Shown here piece by piece: positions 47,400 to 50,998 of a stretch of DNA of 50,998 nucleotides. Under the pieces are notes generated by a model. That model did no database searches. It was not told where the DNA came from and was given only the letters and a program-made list of their open reading frames with translations. Origin of the DNA: Alphaproteobacteria bacterium (GTDB lineage: Bacteria > Pseudomonadota > Alphaproteobacteria > Micropepsales > Micropepsaceae). Where the stretch lies: assembly GCA_016792565.1 (NCBI GenBank), contig JAEUMK010000019.1:1-50998 (forward strand), read 5' to 3'. A program made the position numbers and the translations under genes. How positions within the stretch are numbered: position 1 is the stretch's first letter; the number at the start of each line of letters is the position of its first letter.

Positions 47400-47574
47400 T
47401 TGAATGCCTTGCGCGCGCTAACTTAGACGCCGTTCGAGCGATGGCGCAGAGCAGGCGGGTGCGCCTGGCGAGGCGGCGGCGTTCGGCGCGGGCGGCCCGG
47501 GCCGCGGCGCTGTAGTAGCCGTGGGTCAGGCGATTGCGATTGCCGGGCTGGCCGCCCCGCCGGCGCCGGTTCAG
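47400..47574 (-). pseudogene. Small GNRN/HG-motif protein, CTG start or degenerate
   Basis: The minus-strand frame from a CTG at 47574 reads (M)NRRRRGGQPGNRNRLTH and continues GYYSAAARAARAERRRLARR. This matches a recurrent small-protein motif of proteobacteria (GNxNxLxHGxYS followed by an Arg-rich helix). No ATG, GTG or TTG lies between the preceding in-frame stop and the motif. The CTG overlaps the upstream gene's stop as CTGA, exactly where an ATGA overlap would be expected. The frame does not stop after the motif but runs into repeat elements D/E and on into the antisense of the dioxygenase gene, so the original end seems lost. It may be a CTG-initiated coupled gene or a decaying one. The 3' limit given is approximate. 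Confidence 0.45.
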
Positions 47575-48305
47575 CCCGGCCGGGGGCGGCCGATCGAAGG
47601 AGGGTCGTCGTCATCTCCGTGCCGGCCCTCCATGAGCTCGGCAGCTATTCGAACCTCGATTTCGCGCAATTTCTGCGGATCGGCGGGCTGCCCGGTCAGC
47701 GCGGCCTCGCGGGCGTCGAGCCGGGCGAGATCAAGCCGGAACCCGGCGATGGAGCGCACGGCATGGGCGCGCTCGGCCTCGATGCGGTCCTCGGGCCGGG
47801 CCGGCGACATGCCGACTTCGGCGCGGGCCGCGTCGCTCCACAAATCGGGTTCGTAGGGGGCGATCTTGCGCTCGAACTCGTGCATCGCGCGGTCGCCGTC
47901 CTCATAGGCCTCCTTGAGGCTGCGCTGGATGCCCGGACGGCCGGTGCGCTCGACGCGGACGGCGCGCGAGAAGAGCCGGTCCATCTCGGTGAGGAGCGCC
48001 GGCATGAGGGTCGATTCCGGGGCGCCGGCGACCGCGCCGTCGGCCAGCCGCTTCAGGGCGAGCCCGAGGCCGGCGAGGGCGCGGGCATGGGCGAGGGTGC
48101 GCAACTCCGGTGGGCGGGCCGGGCCGCCCGCCGGGGGCGCCTCGGGCTCGGGCAGCTGAAGGGCGGCATGGGCACGCAGGCCCGCCAAGGCGAAATCGCG
48201 CAGCAGGATGCCGCGCACGGCGTCGGCGACCTCGGCGGCGCTGGCGCCCGGAAAGGCCAGTTCGGGTTCGGGGATATAAGGCGGTTCGTCGTCGTCATCG
48301 TCCAT
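47571..48305 (-). CDS. Acidic helical protein of unknown function
   Basis: This 244-residue protein begins with an Asp-run (MDDDDDEPPYIPEPE) and is otherwise mostly helical, rich in Ala, Arg and Glu. There are long segments such as RTLAHARALAGLGLALKRL and GDRAMHEFERKIAPYEPDLW, and it closes with GDDDDPPSIGRPRPG. I recognise no family and see no signal peptide or membrane helix. The start at 48305 is chosen because GGAG lies eight bases upstream; the ATG at 48311 would leave only two bases. Its TGA overlaps the putative CTG of the small GNRN-motif gene, suggesting a two-gene unit. Function unknown. Confidence 0.6.
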   Translation of the reverse strand: MDDDDDEPPYIPEPELAFPGASAAEVADAVRGILLRDFALAGLRAHAALQLPEPEAPPAGGPARPPELRTLAHARALAGLGLALKRLADGAVAGAPESTLMPALLTEMDRLFSRAVRVERTGRPGIQRSLKEAYEDGDRAMHEFERKIAPYEPDLWSDAARAEVGMSPARPEDRIEAERAHAVRSIAGFRLDLARLDAREAALTGQPADPQKLREIEVRIAAELMEGRHGDDDDPPSIGRPRPG

Positions 48306-48553
48306 CGGCATCGCTCCGGTCAGGCCGCCAAGATAGGGCGGATCGGCCGGGATAGGAATATCATCGTAAGAGTAAAGTCCGCGCGTGGCCGCCGCGCCTC
48401 AGCCATATCGCGTATAAGATATATTATGGAAAATATCGGCATGGGGAAACGGAGCCATTCCGGGGTTTCCAGCGGTCCGCTGCGGCCGGGCCTTGCGGCC
48501 GCTTCCAGCCGCGCCCAGATGTGCTCCATCGCCCTCGGACCGGACAGACGATC

Positions 48554-49093
48554 ATGTCGCTGCGCATCGTCGCCGTATCGGGGAGCCTGCGCGGCGCATC
48601 GTCGAACAGCGCGCTGATGCTGGCAGCCGTTCGCGTGGCGCCGCCGGGCATGACGGTCGAGGTGTTCGACGCCATCGCCGATCTGCCGCACTTCAATCCC
48701 GATCTCGACATCGAGCCGGCGCCGCCGGCCGTGGCGGCCTGGCGCGCGCGCATCCGGGGCGCCGACGGGCTGCTGATCTCGTGTCCGGAGTATGCGCGCG
48801 GCATTCCAGGGGCCTTCAAGAACGCGCTGGACTGGCTGGTGAGCGATCCCGCGGGCTTCGCCAAGCCGATCGCGCTGTGGAACGCCTCGCCGCGGGCGGT
48901 CGCCGCCCCGGAGGCCCTGCGGCTGGTGCTGAGCACGATGTCGGGCCGTGTGGTCGAGGCGGCGAGCCTCACCCTGCCCTTGCTTGGCCGCAGCTGGACG
49001 CCGGAGGAACTGGCGTCGGACCCCTCGATCGCGGCGCTGCTGAGGGCCTCGTTGCAGAGTCTGACCCAAGCAGTTGAACCGCCTACCGATTGA
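48554..49093 (+). CDS. NAD(P)H-dependent FMN reductase
   Basis: This 179-residue protein has a flavodoxin-like fold of the NADPH-dependent FMN reductase family (ChrR/YieF/ArsH relatives). The phosphate loop is GSLRGASSN (residues 9-17) and the flavin-contacting motif SCPEYARGIPGAFKNALDWL. It should reduce quinones, flavins or other electrophiles with NAD(P)H. The ATG at 48554 gives the normal beginning MSLRIVAVSGSLR; an upstream in-frame start adds eleven unrelated residues. It stands alone, with an A+T-rich stretch (48411-48436) upstream that may contain its promoter. Confidence 0.9.
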   Translation: MSLRIVAVSGSLRGASSNSALMLAAVRVAPPGMTVEVFDAIADLPHFNPDLDIEPAPPAVAAWRARIRGADGLLISCPEYARGIPGAFKNALDWLVSDPAGFAKPIALWNASPRAVAAPEALRLVLSTMSGRVVEAASLTLPLLGRSWTPEELASDPSIAALLRASLQSLTQAVEPPTD

Positions 49094-49121: not shown

Positions 49122-50054
49122 TCATGGCGGGGCGATGGTGAGTTTCATGCGGTAAGTGCCGCGGGAGGCGGGGTCGAAACGCCATTGCTCGACCGCCGCC
49201 TTGGCCGCGTCTCCGAAGCCGTAGTCCTCCGGACGTTCCTGGATGATCTTGACCCCGCTCACTCGGCCGACCCCGTCTATGGTCAGCGCCAGCCGCACAT
49301 AACCATGGCGGTCGTTGGCCACCGCCTGGGGCGGCGGGACGGGATCGACCCTGAGGATGGGTTCAGGTGCTGGTGCGAGATCGTACCAGTTGACCCGTCC
49401 GTCGTGGCGGCCGGTCGTGAACTTGAAGTGGATCGTGAAAAGCCCGGCGTAGCCAGGCGCGAAGGCCCACTGCCGGGCCGCCGTCAGCGCGGCTGCCGCG
49501 AAACCGTAATCAGGCGGTAGTTCGTCCGTTACCCTAGCGTCTGTCAGCGTGCCGTCCTCTGCGATCTGGACGACGACGACGGCAACGCCATTTACGCCCA
49601 GTGTTGCGGCGCGCGAGGGGTATTTGGGCGGTACCTTTCTCAGGACCTTGGGCGGGGTCGGCAGCCGGTCGACACTGTGGGCCTCCCGGCCCTCCGCCGG
49701 CCGGAATTCCAGAGTAACGAAGGTACGGCCGGGACGGTTCGGCTCGAATGTCCAGGATTTCAGGGCGGCGGTCGCGGCTTCGCCGAAACCGAAACCGGCG
49801 GGGTCTTCCTCGATGAGATCGACTTGCGTGACCCGGCCGGCCTGATCGACATCAAGGCGTGCGTTGACCTTGCCGACGATGCCCGCCTTATCGGCGGCCG
49901 GGGGATAGACGGGCTGAGGTTGCGTTAGCGGCACAGGGCCGGACGCTGCTGGGGCAGGTGTCGCCGAAGCGGCCGTAGCCAGAACCGCGGCAGCGAGAGC
50001 TGCGCCGCCCAGCGCCCAGGCGAACGCGACGCCGATCAGCCATGTCCGTCGCAT
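49122..50054 (-). CDS. Secreted protein with three TonB C-terminal-like units
   Basis: This 310-residue protein has an N-terminal signal or anchor (MRRTWLIGVAFAWALGGAAL) and three tandem TonB_C-like units of about 80-90 residues. Each begins with a Pro-rich YP segment, has strands of the form VNARLDVDQAGRV, and ends in a helix. The ends read EEDPAGFGFGEAATAALKSW, ELPPDYGFAAAALTAARQW and ERPEDYGFGDAAKAAVEQW. The cytoplasmic start and long Pro-rich spacer of true TonB are missing and no exbB/exbD is present. It is likely periplasmic, binding some partner rather than energising a receptor. The start at 50054 gives the signal sequence. Confidence 0.75.
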   Translation of the reverse strand: MRRTWLIGVAFAWALGGAALAAAVLATAASATPAPAASGPVPLTQPQPVYPPAADKAGIVGKVNARLDVDQAGRVTQVDLIEEDPAGFGFGEAATAALKSWTFEPNRPGRTFVTLEFRPAEGREAHSVDRLPTPPKVLRKVPPKYPSRAATLGVNGVAVVVVQIAEDGTLTDARVTDELPPDYGFAAAALTAARQWAFAPGYAGLFTIHFKFTTGRHDGRVNWYDLAPAPEPILRVDPVPPPQAVANDRHGYVRLALTIDGVGRVSGVKIIQERPEDYGFGDAAKAAVEQWRFDPASRGTYRMKLTIAPP

Positions 50055-50151
50055 CGCCCGCCCCCTCGCGTGGCCGTGTCGACCGGAGACTGCCCGATCC
50101 CATGCCGCCGTCAAGCAAGCGCCGGTTGCGCGGTACGGTGGTACCGGGCCG

Positions 50152-50793
50152 TTACGGTTTGAATGTCACGCGGACGATCAGCGGGTCCGTCGATGTGCCG
50201 GGCGGGAAACGCCAGTCATCGACCGCGCGCACGGCCGCGCGGCCGAACTCGTAGTCCTTCGGCGTTTCCTGCGCGACGTCGGCGCGCGCGACGGTGCCAT
50301 CGGCCCGCAGTTGCACGACGATGTCCACCTGGCCGCTGACACCTGCGGCCAGCGCCTTCTCGGGATAGACGGGGTCCACGCGCTCAAGCGGTGCCGGGGC
50401 CTCGGGGATGCCTGACACGCTCTTCTCGACGCCATCGGGGTTGTGCTGGGGATCGTAGAGCGAGAACACGACCCGCTGGCGATAGGTGCCGGCGCGGCCG
50501 CCGGGATAGACCCATTTGCGCACTGCCTTGCGCGCTTCGATCGCGAAGCCGTAGCCCGGCGGGTCTTCGGCCTCGACGCTGAGGTCGGTCACCCTGCCCT
50601 CGGGCGCGATCGTGACGACCAGGGTGACGACGCCGGCGAGGTCGCGGATGCGGGCCCCGTCCGGATAACGCAGGCCGCCCGAATAGAGCGGTGCCGGGGC
50701 GTCCCGGAAGTCCTGCGGTACGGCGGTTTCGGCGGCGACCGGCAGCAGGCCGCTCATGAACGCCAGCGCCGCGAGTGCACGACACGAGATCAT
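50152..50793 (-). CDS. Secreted protein with two TonB C-terminal-like units
   Basis: This 213-residue protein has a signal peptide (MISCRALAALAFMSGLLPVA, cleavage after AAE) and two TonB_C-like units. Unit 1 contains GLRYPDGARIRDLAGVVTL and EDPPGYGFAIEARKAVRKW. Unit 2 contains VDPVYPEKALAAGVSGQVDI and ETPKDYEFGRAAVRAVDDW. GAGAGG seven bases upstream supports the ATG at 50793; an ATG at 50814, overlapping the upstream gene's stop as ATGA, is the alternative. It shares strand and design with its two neighbours and probably an operon with the upstream one. Function unknown. Confidence 0.75.
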   Translation of the reverse strand: MISCRALAALAFMSGLLPVAAETAVPQDFRDAPAPLYSGGLRYPDGARIRDLAGVVTLVVTIAPEGRVTDLSVEAEDPPGYGFAIEARKAVRKWVYPGGRAGTYRQRVVFSLYDPQHNPDGVEKSVSGIPEAPAPLERVDPVYPEKALAAGVSGQVDIVVQLRADGTVARADVAQETPKDYEFGRAAVRAVDDWRFPPGTSTDPLIVRVTFKP

Positions 50794-50810
50794 CCTGCCG
50801 CCTCTCATTG

Positions 50811-50998
50811 TCATTTCGGCAGGCGGAACTTGGCAACGAAGATATAGTCGCCGGGCGCGGCATCGAACCTCGCCTCCGCCATCGCGAGCTGTCCGAAGAG
50901 TCCGAAATCAAAACCGGTGGGATCCTCGTGCACGATGCCGCTGCCTGCCACCCTGCCCTCGGCGTCGATCGTGACGCGGATGGCCACCTCGCCTTCGA
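50811..50998 (-). CDS. C-terminal part of a third TonB C-terminal-like protein
   Basis: The frame is open to the right edge and stops at 50811-50813 (TGA). The 61 visible residues contain EVAIRVTIDAEGRVAGSGIV, then EDPTGFDFGLFGQLAMAEAR, and end FVAKFRLPK. That is the same unit plan as the two downstream genes: strand, DxxGRV turn, E-D-P-x-G-F-x-F, helix. Its stop overlaps a possible ATG of the next gene as ATGA. The N-terminus lies outside the window. Confidence 0.65.
   Translation of the reverse strand, partial: EGEVAIRVTIDAEGRVAGSGIVHEDPTGFDFGLFGQLAMAEARFDAAPGDYIFVAKFRLPK

Follow-up and report, generated by a model that had tools for sequence, protein, structure and literature searches.

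Tandem TonB C-terminal domains at the probable tail of a Ton operon in Micropepsaceae: possible passive binders of TonB boxes

What can TonB C-terminal domains do when they are strung together without the parts that dock TonB to its motor, and do such strings stand apart from ExbBD? This question is raised by a 50,998-base stretch of DNA from an alphaproteobacterium of the family Micropepsaceae (assembly GCA_016792565.1, contig JAEUMK010000019.1), referred to here as the window, which is an entire contig (C33) of a 114-contig assembly. On its minus strand, at 49122–50998, lie three genes encoding tandem TonB C-terminal domains (PF03544), here named T3a, T2 and T3b and referred to collectively as arrays (Table 1); the contig ends within T3a. 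In an original prediction made from the window, these proteins were described as carrying signal sequences, with no exbB, exbD or receptor gene visible, and as a scaffold or competitor for TonB-box binding rather than an energy transducer. The results presented here suggest that these three genes probably form the end of a conventional Ton operon and, more tentatively, with a probability of about 0.42, that they encode exported strings of TonB tips that bind TonB boxes passively.

The family assignment is clear. T3b matches the Pfam TonB_C profile (PF03544, curated cut-off 24.6 bits) in three stretches (E 8.6e-38, 129.1 bits) and T2 in two (E 4.1e-23, 82.1 bits), and both proteins exceed the cut-off of the NCBI model TIGR01352, which would name them ‘TonB family protein’. 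The 61-residue fragment of T3a present in the window scores 14.0 bits on its own, under the TonB_C cut-off; the whole protein, encoded on another contig (C72) of the same genome, scores 59.1 bits, with two units passing in Pfam and three recognized by the array profile. Against a model derived solely from the C-terminal domains of nine linked tonB genes, T3a, T2 and T3b score 153.5, 124.2 and 201.1 bits, against maxima of 6.7, 10.3 and 8.0 bits in residue-shuffled controls (300 for each protein); the match to TonB tips is thus far beyond chance, and the three minus-strand genes of repeated TonB C-terminal-like units that had been proposed are borne out. The count of ‘at least six’ units was correct for the three, two and one visible in the window, but the whole set comprises eight (3 + 2 + 3), because T3a has three on C72. 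In T3b, the unit map places these units at residues ~36–120, 131–215 and 226–310; the gene starts at an ATG at 50054, and the earliest possible start is a TTG at 50114. The start of T2 is more likely, as judged by eye, to lie at 50793, giving a protein of 213 amino acids; its first listed ATG overlaps the T3a stop by 4 bases, as read from the sequence.

Table 1. Features of the window and of the matching contig end.
Feature	Position	Strand	Description
T3b	49122..50054	-	310 aa; three tandem TonB C-terminal domains; apparently secreted; from Pfam, unit map and AlphaFold2 model
T2	50152..50814	-	220 aa; two tandem TonB C-terminal domains; apparently secreted; from Pfam
T3a, 3' end	50811..50998	-	Final unit of a three-unit protein; 5'-truncated by the contig end; stop 50811-50813
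T3a, whole gene	L009:9196-10080		On contig C72
Contig overlap	L009:9893-10226 vs window 50665-50998		10 base differences
NADPH-dependent FMN (flavin mononucleotide) reductase	48521-49093	opposite to arrays	PF03358, E 2.8e-26; adjoins the array; similar gene beside the G003 array
dif-like XerCD site	48409-48434	+	CGCGTATAAGATATATTATGGAAAAT; no chance match in 100 shuffles

Structure prediction points in the same direction. The AlphaFold2 model of T3b contains three domains (predicted local distance difference test, pLDDT, 75.2; predicted template-modelling score, pTM, 0.41) and that of T2 has a pLDDT of 80.6 and a pTM of 0.52; both models rest on 2-row alignments, and their low pTM values mean that the arrangement of one unit relative to another is not given. 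The first T3b unit (residues 6–91) is predicted to resemble the Escherichia coli TonB tip 1u07 (Z 12.9, root-mean-square deviation, rmsd, 1.6 over 84), BtuB-bound TonB (2gsk_B; Z 12.6, rmsd 1.3 over 80) and FhuA-bound TonB (2grx_C; Z 10.4, rmsd 1.6 over 77). The second (102–191) matches the E. coli tip 1xx3 (Z 12.7, rmsd 1.8 over 88) and the third (195–279) Vibrio TonB2 (2k9k; Z 9.5, rmsd 3.0 over 84). The second unit of T2 matches 2gsk_B (Z 11.6, rmsd 1.6 over 80), and its first is barely covered by the matches listed. The four units covered by the structure searches are predicted to have the fold of TonB tips.

The array proteins lack the parts by which TonB engages its motor. T3a, T2 and T3b have hydrophobic N-termini that contain AxA-type sites (residues 18, 28 and 31, among others), making cleaved signal peptides likely and suggesting a periplasmic location. 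In T3a the first unit starts at residue 17, and in both T2 and T3b at residue 36, as opposed to residue 113 in tonBa and 125 in tonBb, the two TonB proteins of the same genome; the long, often Pro-rich periplasmic spacer of a TonB energy transducer is thus absent from all three, and the secreted-looking, spacerless character originally attributed to them holds. No His was found in the first 60 residues of six array proteins examined of the 10 found in the genus (T3a, T2, T3b and the tonBb-linked arrays of the related genomes G001, G002 and G003). All eight of the linked TonB N-termini examined have this residue, which in four tonBb proteins forms part of an S-3X-H motif, whereas the N-terminal helix of tonBa carries the His only. 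The N-terminal His is part of the motif docking TonB to its motor, according to excerpts of two published papers (PMC12204202, PMC12905483), and the SHLS (Ser-3X-His) motor box was found in none of the array proteins examined. Because they have neither the ExbB-docking His nor a spacer, the array proteins should not be energy transducers on their own, as had been proposed.

The absence of exbB and exbD noted in the original prediction is real within the window, but only because the contig stops there. A TonB_C search of the genome led to contig C72, the final 334 bases of which align end to end with the first bases of the reverse complement of C33, with 10 mismatches (97% identity). Upstream on C72, all on one strand, lie exbB (MotA_ExbB, PF01618, E 1.2e-31), exbD (PF02472, E 7.1e-29), tonBa (TonB_C, PF03544, E 1e-13), tonBb (TonB_C, E 2.1e-10), T3a and the first 50 codons of T2, giving a combined order of exbB–exbD–tonBa–tonBb–T3a–T2–T3b. 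The join between the two contigs is inferred from overlap and synteny, and would also be compatible with a tandem copy of T3a–T2. Eight of the ten differences in the overlap fall in T3a, where all change the protein (7 codons), and two fall in T2, where both are silent; with so few differences, this pattern is compatible with chance under neutrality. The mismatches may correspond to strain variation in the sample or to two copies of the T3a–T2 stretch.

The general arrangement recurs in related genomes of the genus. In G003, a one-contig genome, exbB, exbD and tonBa are separated by a two-gene insert from tonBb, which is followed by a four-unit array; in G001, a single contig carries the series from exbB and exbD through tonBa and tonBb to a three-unit array. 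The exbB and exbD genes are adjacent and on the same strand in both of these unbroken loci, as on C72. In G002, tonBb and a three-unit array occupy a 3.3-kb contig. An array follows tonBb in four of the five genus genomes. In view of the C72 overlap, the exbBD and tonB genes upstream and the order found on the single contig of G003, the three array genes of the window probably make up the final part of a conventional Ton operon. An ordinary TonB–ExbBD locus thus appears to adjoin the arrays across the contig break, and the idea of a set apart from ExbBD is not supported: an independent, ExbBD-free system was rejected on account of the exbB, exbD and two tonB genes found beyond the break. The arrays still need explaining despite this ordinary locus, given their position after tonBb in four of the five genomes. 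No receptor plug domain was found among the matches listed on C33 or C72.

Some of these loci have features of their own. The G003 insert between tonBa and tonBb (L048:9237-12992) consists, by eye, of two opposite-strand genes, one for a KaiC-like ATPase and the other for a histidine kinase that has a response-regulator domain, and the array of this genome is followed by genes resembling, again by eye, the FMN reductase gene of the window and its neighbour at 47571-48311. A second array in G001 (L056:5292-6368), with two clear units and part of a third, adjoins a dif-like site about 30 kb from the Ton operon, on the same contig.

A mechanism can be proposed from these elements. T3a, T2 and T3b would be exported to the periplasm, each as two or three TonB C-terminal domains on short linkers. 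With neither a motor-docking transmembrane helix nor a spacer, the arrays could not carry proton-motive force; untethered tips would hold a transporter but could not pull it. Their simplest role would be that of a passive competitor, holder or cluster-former on the cell's own transporters. E. coli TonB is inhibited by its own periplasmic tip fragments. According to an excerpt of PMC12905483, the TonB box binds as an added beta-strand, which pairs with the final strand of the TonB domain. Binding of FhuA and BtuB in vitro is reported, in an excerpt of PMC11658791, for soluble TonB fragments that are devoid of the transmembrane helix but retain some or all of the spacer; untethered tips could, therefore, hold a transporter without pulling it. 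The predicted fold and a partial conservation of residues are compatible with binding of TonB boxes by the arrays, through which they could exert a modulating effect. The earlier ‘scaffold or competitor for TonB-box binding’ remains, in this respect, a reasonable guess.

Residues were counted in 26 array units of the genus and nine linked TonB tips, with E. coli numbering (two G006 tips, the single units on G002 contig C151 and on contig C13 of the window's own genome, and a partial unit on G001 contig C98 were excluded). P164 and G186 are present in all 26 array units, F202 in 25, Y163 in 20 and W213 in 19; in the linked TonB tips, P164, G186, F202 and Y163 are found in 9/9 and W213 in 8/9. 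The invariance of P164 and G186, together with the retention of Y163, indicates that the array fold is under constraint. The final helix had been described as ending in Trp or similar; the Trp is present in five of the eight units of the window's own arrays and in none of the three T3a units. The rest of the sequence is less constant: the six tonBb-linked array proteins are only 31–42% identical to one another, both within and between species, whereas the C-terminal domains of tonBa and tonBb are 58–79% and 52–75% identical between species, and identity to the copies of the window's genome within the genus reaches 82–95% for exbD and 68–84% for exbB. On these sequence comparisons, conservation of the arrays is far below that of the linked exbBD and tonB genes. 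A tree of 40 units hints that many array units may lie on longer branches, but it is weak (21 of its 37 inner branches are open and the bootstrap had not settled); within it, a single open group (91/97) contains the nine linked TonB tips.

Several observations weigh against passive binding of TonB boxes by products of the Ton operon. Position 166 is basic in all nine linked TonB tips (8 Arg, 1 Lys), but in only three of the eight units of the window's own arrays, and column 171 is Glu in nine of nine linked TonB proteins, as opposed to 4 of 26 array units; with these positions altered, receptor contacts may have changed. The eight protein-changing differences in the T3a overlap fit relaxed constraint as well as adaptation. 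By spacing and strand alone, the Ton and array genes may be co-transcribed, but promoter and terminator scans gave few matches, none clearly above shuffles, which does not favour a single transcript. In G004 (88% complete), exbB–exbD–tonBa–tonBb are followed not by an array but by genes resembling the MFS, mazG and hflX genes of the window, and only single-unit matches were found genome-wide. No exbB or exbD match was found in the stretches read around the arrays on G001 contig C50 and on G002 contigs C284 and C183. Lastly, the number of arrays does not track the number of receptor plug domains in the five genus genomes (17 in the window's genome, 16 in G001, 24 in G002, 38 in G003 and 20 in G004).

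The fast turnover of the arrays makes low-value duplicates a serious rival: locally duplicated tips would be exported and folded, contribute little and be gained and lost. This explanation, though unlikely, would account for the number of array genes beside tonBb, which ranges from none in G004 through one each in G001, G002 and G003 to three in the window's genome, for the low mutual identity of array proteins relative to the tonBa tips and exbD, and for the fact that every base change in the T3a overlap alters the protein. It fits less well with reading frames that are intact in all array genes, with a guanine-cytosine (GC) content at codon position 3 of 0.75–0.85, compared with 0.85–0.89 in exbB and exbD, with a fold core kept in 26 units and with the presence of arrays in four of five genomes. 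The altered contact residues raise, instead, the possibility of another partner (peptidoglycan, TonB itself or ExbD), in which case the arrays might be a cell-wall or assembly factor, binding peptidoglycan, the tonBa and tonBb tips or ExbD and positioning the Ton complex rather than acting on transporters. A tandem protein would in effect already be multimeric, and the lost pattern at columns 166 and 171 fits a changed partner, but the window proteins match no peptidoglycan-binding family at E <= 1 and, in an excerpt of a review, the role of the TonB dimer is presented as a topic of debate; such a factor seems quite improbable.

It is more doubtful still that the soluble tips, encoded with the Ton motor beside the chromosome-dimer resolution site, serve as a decoy defence, titrating TonB boxes, whether of Ton-hijacking bacteriocins or phage proteins or of surplus transporters, and diversifying under conflict. 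Dif-like sites collect mobile elements, and each of the five genus genomes has one near an array or tonBb; the arrays are also multivalent, poorly conserved and variable in number. The bacteriocin pyocin S2 has a TonB box of its own, according to an excerpt of PMC9022066. However, there are simpler causes for fast change, and the neighbours looked at did not appear by eye to be defence genes, no PADLOC search having been made. A flavoprotein, with flavin-carrying units, was considered on account of matches to PF04205 (FMN_bind), which reach 27.3 bits in T3b (cut-off 22) and 31.3 bits in the G001 array, in which no stretch passes alone, and of the FMN reductase encoded next to the arrays. The best stretches cover only positions 1–36 of the 77 in the profile (4–36 in T3b) and sit on TonB_C units, T2 and the G003 array fall under the cut-off, the predicted fold is that of TonB, and the reductase gene lies on the other strand, with no signal sequence noticed in its product. 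No match extended over the whole profile, including the part with the flavin-attachment Thr. These matches are a partial cross-match over less than half of the profile, and this highly improbable reading was rejected. Passive binding of TonB boxes by exported tip strings remains the preferred, if tentative, explanation.

The distribution of the arrays was surveyed with the array profile (E <= 1e-18), considering the best 8 candidates per genome in 289 genomes of the class and the best 24 per genome in 95 genomes of the family. Multi-unit matches were found only in the window's own genome in the class census and, in the family census, in four of the five genus genomes and none of the 90 other family genomes examined. 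These figures understate the group, as known two-unit proteins of G047 (class scan) and G067 (family scan) were missed. Pfam coordinates were read for 33 genomes of the class, the window's own among them, with all matches listed; frames with two matches were present in at least 2 of the 32 others (G047 twice, G101 once), weaker second units being uncounted. In the family, among the matches listed, at least one genome, G067, encodes a two-unit protein of 243 amino acids. Exported, spacer-free TonB tips are, judging from these sequences, a scattered class, and three- and four-unit strings beside exbBD were seen in this genus only, among the genomes sampled. Three adjacent single-unit TonB_C genes in G049, from another family (L098:5526-6633), encode apparently exported proteins, the third of which has a Cys resembling, by eye, a lipoprotein site.

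The dif-like site of the window resembles E. coli dif. G000, G002 and G004 each have one exact copy of it, and G001 and G003 have close variants. The idea that it marks a replication terminus is based on the motif, on the single exact copy in three of the five genus genomes and on its position at ~52% of the G003 record; no sign change in GC skew was seen around the site, which speaks against a terminus there.

To transduce energy, TonB requires three parts: a motor helix, a spacer and a tip. The label ‘TonB family protein’ invites a reading of T3b and T2 as energy transducers, a function that they are unlikely to have on their own, and the case would still be a warning about this label if the arrays were inert duplicates. 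Natural tip-only strings of two to four units, encoded with the motor genes, also offer a ready means of asking whether outer-membrane transport is regulated by tip binding alone. In titles and abstract openings of the open-access literature, no role was found described for secreted, spacer-free, operon-linked tandem TonB tips. TonB proteins with two serial C-terminal domains, mostly membrane-anchored, were reportedly surveyed by Chu, Peacock and Vogel in BioMetals in 2007; the arrays share with these the tandem tips, but are secreted-looking and spacerless, contain as many as four units and come after exbBD-tonB. The two-unit TonB_C proteins of loci L090, L095, L096 and L097 resemble the arrays in having, by eye, a signal-peptide-like start and two units per frame, and differ in having two units only, with no exbB or exbD match in the stretches read; in L096, the units are also preceded by a long N-terminal stretch that includes a Pro run. 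The G049 cluster resembles the arrays in its three adjacent, spacerless, apparently exported genes, but each has one unit only. The closest comparison is with TonB itself, in the ExbBD-TonB systems of E. coli and of tonBa and tonBb: the arrays share its C-terminal family, predicted fold and gene cluster, but they have no motor-docking motif and no Pro-rich spacer, carry two to four C-terminal domains in series and are less conserved.
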